Below, piece after piece: positions 2,825-7,950 of a stretch of DNA of 64,000 bases. Below the pieces are notes generated by a model. That model did not search any database and was not told the origin of the DNA. It saw only the letters and a list, made by a program, of their open reading frames with translations. The position numbers were made by a program, and so were the translations under genes. Source of the DNA: Nitrospira sp. (GTDB lineage: Bacteria > Nitrospirota > Nitrospiria > Nitrospirales > Nitrospiraceae); the NCBI GenBank assembly GCA_024760545.1, contig CP060501.1, positions 558,001 through 622,000 of the forward strand, read 5' to 3'. Position 1 is the stretch's first letter; every line of letters begins with the position of its first letter.

Positions 2825-4789
2825 ATGGACTTCATCGCCTACCACGACCGCAGCAGTTCGGACCACCAGGCTCAGTTCAACAGGCTGTTCCCTCAAGGCT
2901 ACCGGATAATTTCTTTGAGCGTGTACCAGCCGAACAACCCGCTGTATGCCGCAGTGTGGGTGCGGCGCAGCGGACCGGATTGGTCAGCCGTGCACGGGTT
3001 GGACGTGGCGCAGTACCAGACAGCCTTCAATAATGCCGCCGCGGCAGGATTCCATCCGATCATACTCAGCGTCGCGGGTTCCCGCAGCAATCCGATAGTG
3101 GCAGGCGTCTTTGAACAGCGCCCAGGAGGGACGCCGCTCACCCGTCTCGGCCTTGTGAGTGGAAACGCCACCGACCCCGGTACGATCCAGCATTGGGACA
3201 AGCAAGCCCACGACCAGGGTTGGATCATGGCCGGTGGAGCGATCTACGGCGATCCTGGCACACCCACATACGCGGGTATCTGGCCGGTGAACGGCGACCG
3301 TGTTCCCTGGAGTGCGGACGGTATCCTGGACGACCACGATGACTATCAGCAGCGCTTCGACGCGCAAATTAGCGGCAACGCCCGCCTCGCTTACGCGGCG
3401 GTGTCCGGCGACGAACACTATCTCTCGATCTACCGTAGCGACCAGATCGGGCCGTATCTAGCGAGGCACGGACTGACGAGCGCAGGCTACCAAACGGAGT
3501 TCAATCGACTCGTCCCCTTGGGCTACTATCCGATTAGCGTACAAGCCGGCGGCAGCGGCTCTGGGATACGATTCACCGTTATCTTCGCAAAGCAAGAAGC
3601 TCCGTTGCTGCGGCAATGGACGGTCACCGGCGTTGGGCAGTCATCGGCAGCCGCAGTCGACGACACCATGCGTGGGGTGTTACAAGCCGCTGGCGTACGT
3701 AACGCTTCATTGGCTGTGGTCGACAACACCCGTCTCGTCTTTGCACGGGGCTACACCTGGGCCGAACCCGGCTATCCGATAGCCTTGCCGACGACTCTGT
3801 TCCGCATCGCCAGTGTTTCGAAAACCTTCGCTGCAGTCGCCGCTCACCAGCTCATTGATCAAGGGCTCCTGCACTTACACGACACCGTGCAGGGCATCCT
3901 TGGCCTGACCACTCCGACGGGTTTGCCGCCCACCGACCCAAGCTTTGCCGCGATTACAGTGGAGGACCTTCTGTTTCATCGCAGTCGGCTCAACCCGGAT
4001 TTTTACTGGTCAGATACCGCAGTCGCTGCGGCGTTCGGCGTCTCCCTCCCGGTTACCGAAGCACAGCTCGCCTCCTTCAAATGCAGCGAGATGCTGCTGG
4101 CCACCGCTCCGCCCTATAACAACTGGGGCTATGCCTTACTCGGCATGGTGGTGGCGCGTGTGCGGGGCGTCGCTTCCTTCTTCGACGCAATTCGCAGCAG
4201 TATTCTCCAGCCCTTGCAAATGACACGCGTGCGTACCGCAACTTCGCTGGCCGGAGCTAACTTCGCCGACGAGGCTCGCTATCACCGCAGTGGCGAAACC
4301 GCGCTTACGCTGGCGGTGGGACGTAGCGTAATGACCGCCGACCAACCGCTGGTAGCCGATGTATACGGCAATCTACACCTCGAAAATGGCGCGAGCGGTG
4401 GCGGCCTGTCCTGCGCTGCCGTCGACCTGGCCCGTTTCGTGGCGGCATTCAATGTCAATCGTGCCAACCCGATGTTGCGCCGATCCGCGATCGTCGCCAT
4501 GCTCAATGCAGCGGCCCACTCGGGACTGCCGCGCGCAGGCAACGGGTTCGATGGCGTCGCAGTCACAGGCTCCAGTTTTCGCTGCGACAAAGGCGGTTAC
4601 ATCTGGACTTCGCAGAATGCCATCAGCTTCGACCTCGATGGCCTGGGCATCGTCGTCTGCTACAACGGCGTCAACGACGCGGCGTTATTCCAGACCGGAT
4701 GGCCCGCCATTCGCGCTGCGATCGAGGCCGTGCCTTGGTCAAGCCATGCGAACTACTTTCCTGATTTCGGGATGCCTGCATTCACTTAA
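2825..4789 (+). CDS. serine hydrolase (class C beta-lactamase fold) with N-terminal tandem repeats
   Basis: A 654-aa two-part protein. Residues 1-265 are about four copies of a ~55-residue unit with Y-Q-x-x-F-N and G-(Y/F)-x-P-I-x-(L/V)-S signatures, matching the bacterial tandem repeat domain seen in polyglycine-hydrolase-like proteins. Residues ~275-640 are a beta-lactamase/esterase family domain: the nucleophile motif is S330-V-S-K333 and the second motif Y431-N-N. A canonical KTG triad is not obvious. No signal peptide is seen at the chosen start, and no good Shine-Dalgarno precedes it, so an error at the N-terminus or coupling to the SDR gene 8 nt upstream is possible. The substrate (peptide, ester or beta-lactam) cannot be inferred. 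Confidence 0.85.
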   Translation: MDFIAYHDRSSSDHQAQFNRLFPQGYRIISLSVYQPNNPLYAAVWVRRSGPDWSAVHGLDVAQYQTAFNNAAAAGFHPIILSVAGSRSNPIVAGVFEQRPGGTPLTRLGLVSGNATDPGTIQHWDKQAHDQGWIMAGGAIYGDPGTPTYAGIWPVNGDRVPWSADGILDDHDDYQQRFDAQISGNARLAYAAVSGDEHYLSIYRSDQIGPYLARHGLTSAGYQTEFNRLVPLGYYPISVQAGGSGSGIRFTVIFAKQEAPLLRQWTVTGVGQSSAAAVDDTMRGVLQAAGVRNASLAVVDNTRLVFARGYTWAEPGYPIALPTTLFRIASVSKTFAAVAAHQLIDQGLLHLHDTVQGILGLTTPTGLPPTDPSFAAITVEDLLFHRSRLNPDFYWSDTAVAAAFGVSLPVTEAQLASFKCSEMLLATAPPYNNWGYALLGMVVARVRGVASFFDAIRSSILQPLQMTRVRTATSLAGANFADEARYHRSGETALTLAVGRSVMTADQPLVADVYGNLHLENGASGGGLSCAAVDLARFVAAFNVNRANPMLRRSAIVAMLNAAAHSGLPRAGNGFDGVAVTGSSFRCDKGGYIWTSQNAISFDLDGLGIVVCYNGVNDAALFQTGWPAIRAAIEAVPWSSHANYFPDFGMPAFT

Positions 4790-4830
4790 GGCCACTCGTG
4801 CCGCAAGGCTCCCCAGTCTCACATGACGTC

Positions 4831-4995
4831 TTAGTCTTCGTTGTCCTCGTCTTCCTCGTCGTTGTCCTCGTCACCGCCATCTTTTTGAATCTCGAAGATG
4901 GTGATGGTGTTACTGACCTCGTGCGAGACTACCAAGAGAGGCCTGTGGGTCGGGCTATCCTTTTTCTTGATGAAGATCATGCCTTCTGAATGGCT
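4831..4995 (-). pseudogene. 3' relic of a choice-of-anchor I / alkaline-phosphatase-like gene
   Basis: The minus-strand frame encodes EGMIFI, then RPLLVVSHEVSNTITIFEI, which resembles the very C-terminal beta-propeller segment of choice-of-anchor I domain proteins. It is followed by a run of acidic residues (GDEDNDEEDEDNED). Everything upstream in that frame is missing: about 70 nt further on lies the methyltransferase gene on the other strand. An open frame with ATG continues to 5064, but the extra residues do not look like the family. I read it as a deletion remnant rather than a functional 77-aa protein. Confidence 0.55.
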
Positions 4996-5062
4996 ATACC
5001 TCGGGCTTTTCAGTAGACTGATCTGCAATGGCTGACTGAGACCGATTATTTTCGGAGGTTTC

Positions 5063-5815
5063 ATGCCTTCATCCCATGTACAAAATTGGCATCCCGCTCA
5101 ATATGCCGCAAACGCCCGGTTTGTCTCGGATCTCGGCATGCCCGTGTTGGAGCTCCTGTCCTCGAAACCAGGGGAGCGAATCCTTGATCTCGGCTGCGGT
5201 GATGGTGTGCTGACCCGTAAGATCGTGGAGTCTGGGTGCGCGGTGGTCGGGATCGATGCAAGCCCGGATATGGTCGCTGCGGCCCGATTGCAAGGACTAG
5301 ATGCTCAGGTGATGGATGCGCACACGATGTCCTTCAGGAATGAATTTGACGCCGTGTTTTCAAACGCCGCACTACACTGGATCCAACAACCCGATCGGGT
5401 TATCGCCGGCGTCTGGGAGGCGCTCAAAGGCGGCGGTCGTTTTGTCGGTGAGTTCGGTGGATACGGCAACGTCAACGCCATTGTGAACGCACTCGAGTCT
5501 GCACTCCTTTCGCGAAACCTCGAGGCGATCAATCCTTGGTATTTCCCGCGCCCGGAAGAATACGGAGCACTGCTTACAGCGAAGGGTTTTGTCGTCACAA
5601 GCCTTGCCCTCATTCCACGCCCCACTCCCCTGCCCAATGGTATGCGCGCCTGGCTTGAGACATTTGCGCAGCCGTACGTGTCGGCATTGCCCATCGACCA
5701 AAGACCGGAGTTTATTTCCGAAGTCACTGACGCATTAGCGCCCATGCTCCGCGATGCCAACGGCGACTGGCATGCAGATTACGTTCGCTTACGGTTTTCC
5801 GCAATGAAACCATAA
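5063..5815 (+). CDS. class I SAM-dependent methyltransferase
   Basis: A 250-aa methyltransferase with the seven-strand Rossmann fold. SAM motif I is ILDLGCGDG at residues 40-48, the acidic residue ending strand 2 is in VVGIDAS, and ALHWIQQPDRVI plus the GGGRFVGEFGG strand match the trans-aconitate 2-methyltransferase-like branch (Methyltransf_11/25). The ATG is preceded by TCGGAGGTTTC, a good ribosome-binding site lying inside the upstream pseudogene remnant. The acceptor substrate is unknown. It is monocistronic or paired loosely with the VIT-family gene 35 nt downstream. Confidence 0.88.
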   Translation: MPSSHVQNWHPAQYAANARFVSDLGMPVLELLSSKPGERILDLGCGDGVLTRKIVESGCAVVGIDASPDMVAAARLQGLDAQVMDAHTMSFRNEFDAVFSNAALHWIQQPDRVIAGVWEALKGGGRFVGEFGGYGNVNAIVNALESALLSRNLEAINPWYFPRPEEYGALLTAKGFVVTSLALIPRPTPLPNGMRAWLETFAQPYVSALPIDQRPEFISEVTDALAPMLRDANGDWHADYVRLRFSAMKP

Positions 5816-5850: not shown

Positions 5851-6567
5851 ATGTATTTGCGCCAAGAAACGGACGCGGTAAGACATCGCGAACCGCACAG
5901 GATTCATCGTGCCGGCTGGCTGCGCGCAGCGGTGCTTGGTGCGAATGACGGTATTGTGTCCACGGCCAGTCTCATATTGGGCGTGGCGGCGGCAGGCGCA
6001 AGTTCACAGAGCATTGTCGTTGCCGGTGTGGCCGGACTTGTAGCCGGCGCCATGTCCATGGCGGCCGGGGAGTATATTTCGGTCAGCTCGCAAGCTGACA
6101 CCGAACGGGCGGATCTGGATCGGGAACAGACGGAATTGGCCGCTGATCCCGAGCGAGAGCACGCGGAAATGACCGCTATGTATGTCGCGCGTGGAGTCGA
6201 TCACGGCCTCGCCTCTGCTGTCACGACCCAATTGATGACCCATGATGCACTGGGCGCGCATAGCCGTGAAGAGCTGGGTCTCACTGACACAGTGGCTGCT
6301 CGACCGGTTCAAGCCGCACTCGCGTCGGCCGGCACGTTTTCGGTTGGTGCACTCCTCCCGCTCCTGATTGTCGTGGCGGCGCCGAAATCGATGATTCTGT
6401 GGGCCGTGTCAGGCAGCTCACTCTTCTTTCTTGCATTACTCGGCTCGCTGGCCGCGCAGGCCGGTGGCGCGCCAATCATGAGAGGTGCCGCGCGAGTTAC
6501 TTTCTGGGGTGCCTTGGCCATGGCGGTCACGGCTGGCGTTGGAGCCTTGTTTGGAGCAGGGTTCTAA
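5851..6567 (+). CDS. VIT1/CCC1-family membrane transporter
   Basis: A 238-aa integral membrane protein of the VIT1/CCC1 family, which exports or sequesters Fe2+/Mn2+ in characterised members. Family signatures are LGANDGIVSTASLILGVAAAG in the first membrane segment and GLVAGAMSMAAGEYISVSSQ in the second. A charged helical cytoplasmic stretch follows (residues ~85-145, rich in E/D, the likely metal-binding domain), then three C-terminal membrane segments with G-rich turns. Length and topology are normal for the bacterial branch. GAGGA lies about 11 nt before the ATG. The direction of transport and the metal are inferred from the family only. Confidence 0.92.
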   Translation: MYLRQETDAVRHREPHRIHRAGWLRAAVLGANDGIVSTASLILGVAAAGASSQSIVVAGVAGLVAGAMSMAAGEYISVSSQADTERADLDREQTELAADPEREHAEMTAMYVARGVDHGLASAVTTQLMTHDALGAHSREELGLTDTVAARPVQAALASAGTFSVGALLPLLIVVAAPKSMILWAVSGSSLFFLALLGSLAAQAGGAPIMRGAARVTFWGALAMAVTAGVGALFGAGF

Positions 6568-6716: not shown

Positions 6717-6902
6717 TCAATACAGTGGAGCTTGAGGGCCCCATCGCAATCCGGCGAGATCCGGGTCCTCACCCTCTTGGCCAGGCCGGTCGCGCTTATT
6801 GGCTTTGCGCAGCGCGCGGCGCTCTTCTTTTTCACGCTGCTTCTGAATGCGGGCTTTTTCACGGTCTCGTTTTGCGAGCGTAACTTTACCTGGTCCTCCG
6901 AT
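6717..6902 (-). CDS. small highly basic conserved-looking protein with apparent ATC start
   Basis: A 61-residue minus-strand frame starting GGPGKVTLAKRDREKAR, followed by QKQREKEERRALRKANK: a lysine/arginine/glutamate-rich coiled helix like the small GGPGKxTxAKREREK proteins I recall from many bacteria. It has no ATG, GTG or TTG. AAGGAGG lies 5 nt before an ATC codon (6902-6900), directly preceding the conserved Gly-Gly; a second ATC and a CTG lie upstream, and an in-frame TAG at 6920-6918 closes the frame. Either ATC is used as a non-canonical start or the ATG has mutated. It lies 42 nt downstream of another small gene, suggesting one transcript. Function unknown; the composition suggests nucleic-acid or ribosome binding. 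Confidence 0.6.
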   Translation of the reverse strand: MGGPGKVTLAKRDREKARIQKQREKEERRALRKANKRDRPGQEGEDPDLAGLRWGPQAPLY

Positions 6903-6944
6903 GATGCCCTCCTTCAGCTATGGCGTAGCTGCGCGCGAGTGATC

Positions 6945-7205
6945 CTATGTAAGGGCCTCGCCTTTTCGAGTTGATCCGGATACCTTGACAACTTTTTTAC
7001 GGGATGCGCCGTTCATATGAGAACGAGAGAGCGTATCGGGACTCAAACCGTGGCTTGACGCTGAGATAATCTGACGGCGAATGTCTTCTATCGAAGGTGC
7101 GGACGAGTTGCTCGCCGGATCTTGAAGTCCGAGCAGATCCCAGTGAACTCTTGTTCTACGAATGGCTCGTTTCCGTCTAGGTGAGGCTTTGGTCCCCCAG
7201 GACAT
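6945..7205 (-). CDS. hypothetical basic protein, 86 aa
   Basis: I do not recognise the family. The ORF has an excellent ribosome-binding site (AGAGGAG, 6 nt spacing) before ATG 7205. It encodes a lysine/arginine-rich protein without membrane segments; the N-terminal third reads RRKRAIRRTRVHWDLLGLQ and the C-terminal third is SRKKVVKVSGSTRKGE. It precedes the small basic 61-aa frame by 42 nt on the same strand, so the two may form an operon of nucleic-acid-binding or ribosome-associated small proteins. That role is inference from charge only. Confidence 0.5.
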   Translation of the reverse strand: MSWGTKASPRRKRAIRRTRVHWDLLGLQDPASNSSAPSIEDIRRQIISASSHGLSPDTLSRSHMNGASRKKVVKVSGSTRKGEALT

Positions 7206-7273: not shown

Positions 7274-7630
7274 TTACTCGCTGGGTAATACGGAACCCTT
7301 CTTGCCGATTCTTACAAACCGATCTTCCGCAAAGACCGACCGTAGCCGGTCGGTGACGGACCGACGATACAGTTCGGATTCGCGGCCGACCAGAATCAAA
7401 TTATCCTGATCGAGCAGAATATTGAGATGGTTCTCCGATACGAGCAACCGCGTGCTGTCACCCACATTCACGCGATACTGTGTCTTCCCGTCAGGGTTGC
7501 GCTCCGAATTGGACACGATCTCGGTCAGTCCGTCAATGATGCCTTCATAGGCTTCAGATCGATGACGTACTTTCGTGCCGTCCGGGATTCGGACCCAACG
7601 GTTCTCAGATGTAGATGGGTTCTGCTTCAT
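7274..7630 (-). CDS. hypothetical protein with small beta-barrel-like segment
   Basis: 118 aa from ATG 7630, chosen because GCAAGGAG lies about 11 nt upstream; the frame continues 32 codons further without such a site. Residues 12-70 alternate hydrophobic and polar positions (RIPDGTKVRHRSEAYEGIIDG, then TQYRVNVGD and TRLLVSENHL), suggesting an SH3-like or Tudor-like small barrel, a common RNA/DNA- or protein-binding scaffold. The C-terminus is helical and basic. No catalytic motif. I do not recognise the family name. Confidence 0.7.
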   Translation of the reverse strand: MKQNPSTSENRWVRIPDGTKVRHRSEAYEGIIDGLTEIVSNSERNPDGKTQYRVNVGDSTRLLVSENHLNILLDQDNLILVGRESELYRRSVTDRLRSVFAEDRFVRIGKKGSVLPSE

Positions 7631-7950
7631 CGCGGTTTTTCTCCTTGCCTCGAACACACACGACGCATCGGTCCGGGGCGTGATGGCTGACAAAAAAGGC
7701 CTTTGCCCGACGACCTTACTGCACACCGATCAATTCAATCGCGCAGGGACGGAACCAGGAGGGAAGAGCGCGAGGATTAAAATTCGTCTGTGATGATTGT
7801 ACCATACTCACGTGCACATTGTGAATGGTGGCAACTCCGACACGACGGGACTATGCTGCTCCATCCGGTATCGCACCAGCGCCCTCCCAATGTAGGATAC
7901 CGCGACGAGTCGTGACGAGATACAATCGGCGCCATCATGGGGAGATGATG
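7631..7950. other. divergent intergenic region
   Basis: 320 bp between the minus-strand hypothetical gene and the plus-strand PilZ gene. It must hold promoters for both directions. I see no convincing coding frame, RNA gene or strong hairpin; a 36-codon frame around 7682 has no ribosome-binding site. Confidence 0.4.

Follow-up and report, generated by a model that had tools for sequence, protein, structure and literature searches.

A small gene of Nitrospira with a conserved ATC start was identified in the window, that is, in the whole 64,000-nucleotide stretch of Nitrospira sp. DNA that was analysed. The frame, its ATC codon and its Shine-Dalgarno sequence are conserved, it is paired with a small gene directly upstream, and infC of the same genome also begins with ATC. 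We conclude, with a probability of roughly 0.8, that this is a real gene (referred to below as the AUC gene) whose translation would be initiated at AUC by the normal initiator tRNA, and that AUC has been selected as an IF3-dependent brake.

The reading frame and its start codon

The original prediction, made from the letters alone, had described a conserved-looking small basic protein, encoded by a frame that is closed upstream by TAG, lacks ATG, GTG and TTG starts, and carries AAGGAGG 5 nt before an ATC. All of these start features were seen again, on the minus strand (Table 1), and the description of the protein was correct. The frame begins with ATC GGA GGA CCA GGT AAA and ends with CTG TAT TGA. 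The TAG is separated from the start ATC by the codons CTG AAG GAG GGC ATC, and no ATG, GTG or TTG usable as a start was present near the N-terminal end. The frame is absent from the listing of ORFs with common start codons; in the stop-to-stop listing it appears as 6717-6917. Plus-strand ORFs over the same bases were rejected as mechanical ORFs only.

Table 1. Coordinates of the AUC gene, its start signals and its neighbours in the window.
Feature	Position	Strand	Remarks
AUC-start gene	6717..6902	minus	61 codons + TGA; small basic protein IGGPGKVTLAKRDREKARIQKQREKEERRALRKANKRDRPGQEGEDPDLAGLRWGPQAPLY; expected first residue fMet
ATC start codon	6900..6902	minus	second of two neighbouring ATC codons; invariant in 93 non-redundant ATC-type homologues; same column ATG in other lineages
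Shine-Dalgarno AAGGAGG	6908..6914	minus	5 nt spacing to ATC
In-frame TAG	6918..6920	minus	closes the AUC-gene frame upstream
Upstream partner gene	6945..7205	minus	86 aa, basic, ATG start; MSWGTKASPRRKR... (MSWGTK...); ends 42 nt before the AUC gene
Second upstream gene	7274..7726	minus	RWVRIPDGTKV... family; exact start uncertain; no Pfam match
VIT1-family (PF01988) putative iron/manganese transporter	5851-6567	plus	convergent with the AUC gene

The second of the two ATC codons can be identified as the start, because relatives replace the first by ACC, GCC, CCC, TTT, CGT or other codons but keep the second, and because relatives with an ATG carry it at the second position. Among the 116 homologues with an ATC start, the preceding codon was ATC in 46 and ACC in 41, the others having GCC, CCC, CTT, TTT, CGT and further codons.

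Conservation of the ATC start and of the Shine-Dalgarno sequence

Homologues were found in 50 of the 59 nearest genomes, in 34 of 35 genomes of the genus Nitrospira (the window's own included), and in 129 of 395 genomes sampled from the phylum. The window's genome itself contains three copies of the family, and the protein of Nitrospira sp. BO4 is 100% identical to the product of the AUC gene. No plasmid homologues were found.

The start column was placed in all fetched homologues by a profile HMM, giving 152 distinct sequences. It was occupied by ATC in 116 of them, ATG in 21, ATA in 3 (all of family f4), GTG in 3 and ATT in 1. The other 8 come from a diverged subfamily of paralogues, which carries an ATG of its own a few codons downstream. 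Judged from these alignments, the ATC start is kept across the genus Nitrospira and neighbouring families. Since the arrangement of Shine-Dalgarno sequence and ATC recurs in 116 distinct homologues, chance can be excluded. On a weakly resolved tree of 148 proteins and 61 columns, the non-AUG state required 6 changes, compared with a mean of 29.5 after shuffling.

In codons 2-20 of the 93 non-redundant ATC-type sequences, mismatch rates were 0.22, 0.17 and 0.51 at the first, second and third codon positions, and this excess at the third position indicates that the frame is translated. The isoleucine codons in the long ORFs of the window are ATC in 367 cases (61%), ATT in 182 (30%) and ATA in 50 (8%), so that codon bias alone does not explain the invariance of the start ATC, with the reservation that the sequences are related.

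The members of the diverged paralogue subfamily (MSHTT..KKRHREQ...; L054, L055, L059, L226-L230) have an ordinary ATG start, and the subfamily occurs in several of the genomes that hold ATC-type copies. They may represent an unbraked version of the protein.

The end of GGAGG lies exactly 5 nt upstream of the start in 108 of the 116 ATC homologues. In the 93 non-redundant sequences, conservation is lacking in the leader until a block sets in abruptly with AAGGAGG, and no conserved leader element besides the Shine-Dalgarno sequence was found in this set; control by leader RNA structure was discarded on the same ground. Of the 120 non-AUG members, 113 carry GGAGG, versus 16 of the 32 members with a canonical start (Fisher p 4e-8, uncorrected for kinship). 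Seven non-AUG members, that of N. moscoviensis included, lack it. A near-perfect Shine-Dalgarno sequence accompanies the weak start codon, as reported for S. aureus cvfC1, ccpN and infC.

The start of infC and a possible dependence on IF3

Comparison with infC, already suggested in the original prediction, turned out to be apt, and stronger than stated. The E. coli infC gene starts with AUU. In the window's genome, infC (loci L060/L264, contig C1, about 1926700) has no canonical start at the N-terminus either, and reads AAGAGGTGGCCT ATC GTC CCC AAA (one base before: AAAGAGGTGGCCT). A survey of 60 infC loci, with starts read by eye from a codon print-out, gave ATC in families f1, f2, f4, f5, f9 and f13, ATT in one locus (L254), and ATG in family f3. 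Annotation limited to ATG, GTG and TTG would misplace the infC start throughout these Nitrospirota, f3 excepted. In Streptomyces, the infC start is likewise ATC, and IF3 is known to repress start codons other than ATG, GTG and TTG, including the GTC start of sigR (PMC5472188).

In family f3, a single lineage, an infC with ATG coincides with an AUC-gene homologue with ATG, a correlation that is suggestive of IF3 control. It is no proof of such control, because it involves one lineage and the converse fails: an infC with ATC occurs together with an ATG or GTG homologue in several lineages (G213, G192, G118, G255, G318, G330; families f5, f9, f13). The two starts are therefore not strictly coupled.

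We infer the following course of events in the cell. The AUC gene and its AUG-start partner would lie on the same transcript. AUC would pair at just two positions with the CAU anticodon of the initiator tRNA, while the strong Shine-Dalgarno sequence would keep the 30S subunit positioned on the start. If IF3 discards most of the initiation complexes held there, output should be low and, as for infC, set by the ratio of active IF3 to 30S subunits, rising when IF3 is scarce relative to these. The first residue of the product would be fMet, not Ile. The retention of AUC across a large group of species, as in infC, suggests that the amount of protein is held low by start-codon proofreading.

AUC might also be a true start that is kept merely for low, constant expression, the IF3 level being no physiological input and nothing being sensed. 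We consider this possible, if distinctly less probable than an IF3-dependent brake. It would fit the lineages that manage without a brake on the homologue while their infC stays ATC, the leader in which nothing except the Shine-Dalgarno sequence is conserved, and the AUU start of S. aureus cvfC1, which shows no dependence on the medium (PMC13009471). It accounts less well for the joint appearance of ATG in both genes of family f3, and for the use of the identical codon, ATC, in infC and the AUC gene of most genomes.

ATC starts elsewhere in the genome

In the window's genome, 49 sites of the form AAGGAGG-N4-6-ATC were found and all were inspected. Most lie within genes, immediately precede an ATG, or open short frames. 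The 49 include two copies of the AUC-gene family, both of them conserved and lacking a canonical start; the third copy is preceded by GAGGAGG and hence falls outside the list. Besides the two family members, 3 of the 49 sites head frames of at least 40 codons without a canonical start, one of which (C2:10891) has a relative in another genome (G007) that lacks this start. No further conserved gene with an ATC start was found among the 49 sites, two short start-less frames being left out of account.

These counts bear on the idea that Nitrospira generally tolerates ATC starts and that the codon has no special meaning in the AUC gene. An infC that also starts with ATC would agree with it, but a mere three start-less frames of that length beyond the family itself, and an ATG start in the gene right upstream, make it very unlikely. 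Expression by read-in from an upstream frame, by frameshifting, or from a leaderless or internal start, with the Shine-Dalgarno sequence and ATC being incidental, is likewise very unlikely. It would fit those relatives whose frame extends far upstream without a stop and contains canonical codons in that part. In the window and several relatives (L001, L015, L020, L021, L034), however, the ATC is preceded by a stop at a distance of 4-5 codons, conservation starts exactly at the Shine-Dalgarno sequence, and the partner gene mostly ends 30-75 nt upstream. Of the two options left by the original prediction, non-canonical initiation is strongly supported by the conserved ATC and the strong Shine-Dalgarno sequence at fixed spacing, whereas the other, a recent start-codon mutation, is refuted, as is a pseudogene or a base-call error in the window's genome, since ATG occupies the start column only in a few lineages and one paralogue and is absent from most relatives, while the identical ATC recurs in more than 100 distinct homologues from many assemblies, with an intact frame and a constrained protein.

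An odd initiator tRNA was considered as the cause of the ATC start and rejected. A tRNA scan of the genome, in which 150 of 172 candidates were scored, yielded 45 matches, among them three tRNA-Met with CAU anticodon; the genes covered by the scan did not include tRNA-Ile(GAU). The sole initiator-type tRNA seen among the scored candidates (L288) has a CAU anticodon and, by eye, C1:A72 ends.

In the Shine-Dalgarno-ATC frame at C2:10891 (locus L366, G000:C2:10700-11700), the N-terminal DNA CCCCGCCGTTCAGGGCGGGGAGGATGTCA resembles, by eye, the right end of an IS200/IS605 element attached to a gene that few relatives conserve.

Relation to known non-canonical starts

infC resembles the AUC gene in its conserved non-canonical start, its strong Shine-Dalgarno context in these genomes, and the use of ATC in the same genome. 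It differs in that it encodes the regulator itself, whereas the AUC gene encodes an unrelated small basic protein. Streptomyces sigR is another conserved non-canonical start outside infC; its codon is GTC, its product is a sigma factor, and its control by IF3 is experimental, in contrast to the inferred control of the AUC gene. Similar in start anatomy, homology not being claimed, are S. aureus cvfC1 (AUU, 61 aa) and ccpN (AUA), a small protein and a regulator with conserved AUN starts and extended Shine-Dalgarno sequences that make up for the weak codon; they belong to a different phylum and their starts were mapped experimentally. In S. aureus, a weak start codon is paired with a near-perfect Shine-Dalgarno sequence in cvfC1, ccpN and infC, and AUU and AUA starts with an extended Shine-Dalgarno sequence give about 10% of the AUG output (PMC13009471). 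In Listeria monocytogenes, an ATC start of rnhC is reported as fixed across the species, and infC (ATT) is in the same short list (PMC13068326); rnhC shares the fixed ATC with the AUC gene, but is an enzyme gene of a Firmicute. By analogy with infC, sigR, cvfC1, ccpN and rnhC, the mechanism would be of a known kind, operating here on a protein family without a match in the libraries searched.

Apart from infC, conserved non-AUG starts are rare, and the cases found come from a few model organisms. A literature search for AUC as an initiation codon or for ATC starts in Nitrospira returned nothing relevant. The AUC gene adds a clear natural case, with more than 100 sequences, three copies in one genome, and relatives with ATG as built-in controls. 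The true start is out of reach for gene prediction that accepts ATG, GTG and TTG only, so that a conserved gene of these nitrifying bacteria is likely to be missing or misannotated. IF3 activity may also serve as a regulatory input in these ecologically important bacteria.

The protein and its genomic neighbourhood

Searches of the protein and its family profile against Pfam, NCBIfam and PDB sequences gave nothing above curated cut-offs, and the product could not be assigned to known families, ribosomal proteins and hibernation factors included. The AlphaFold2 model (mean pLDDT 75.8, pTM 0.41) shows a single helix spanning residues 9-35, with an extended tail. The predicted helix is 27 residues long and rich in Lys and Arg; the tail is conserved and acidic-aromatic. 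In an alignment of 20 sequences, K6, T8, K11, R12, R14, E15, K25, R32, D46, L49, G55, P56 and P59 are invariant. A single basic helix with a conserved tail would fit small RNA- or ribosome-binding proteins.

The partner gene, for which no Pfam match was found, is directly upstream on the same strand in 75 of 80 named loci, with an ATG start wherever this was read and mostly 30-75 nt from the AUC gene. The family of the second upstream gene is present in 55 of the 80, not always on the strand of the AUC gene. An RRM-domain protein and a DEAD-box helicase, the latter usually convergent, are near the AUC gene in many loci. By association, this neighbourhood points to RNA metabolism or translation. 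Taken with the composition and the predicted helix, it makes an association of this small protein with RNA or the ribosome probable.

A further-reaching model combines two proposals: that AUC marks a small IF3-controlled regulon in Nitrospirota, made up of infC and up to three family copies per genome, and that the protein acts on the 30S subunit or on initiation, closing a feedback circuit between IF3, the ribosome and the protein. We regard the two together as doubtful.

In locus L339, the third family copy of the window's genome immediately precedes an ORF of 571 aa (3919-5631), which by eye resembles a TIR-domain protein.
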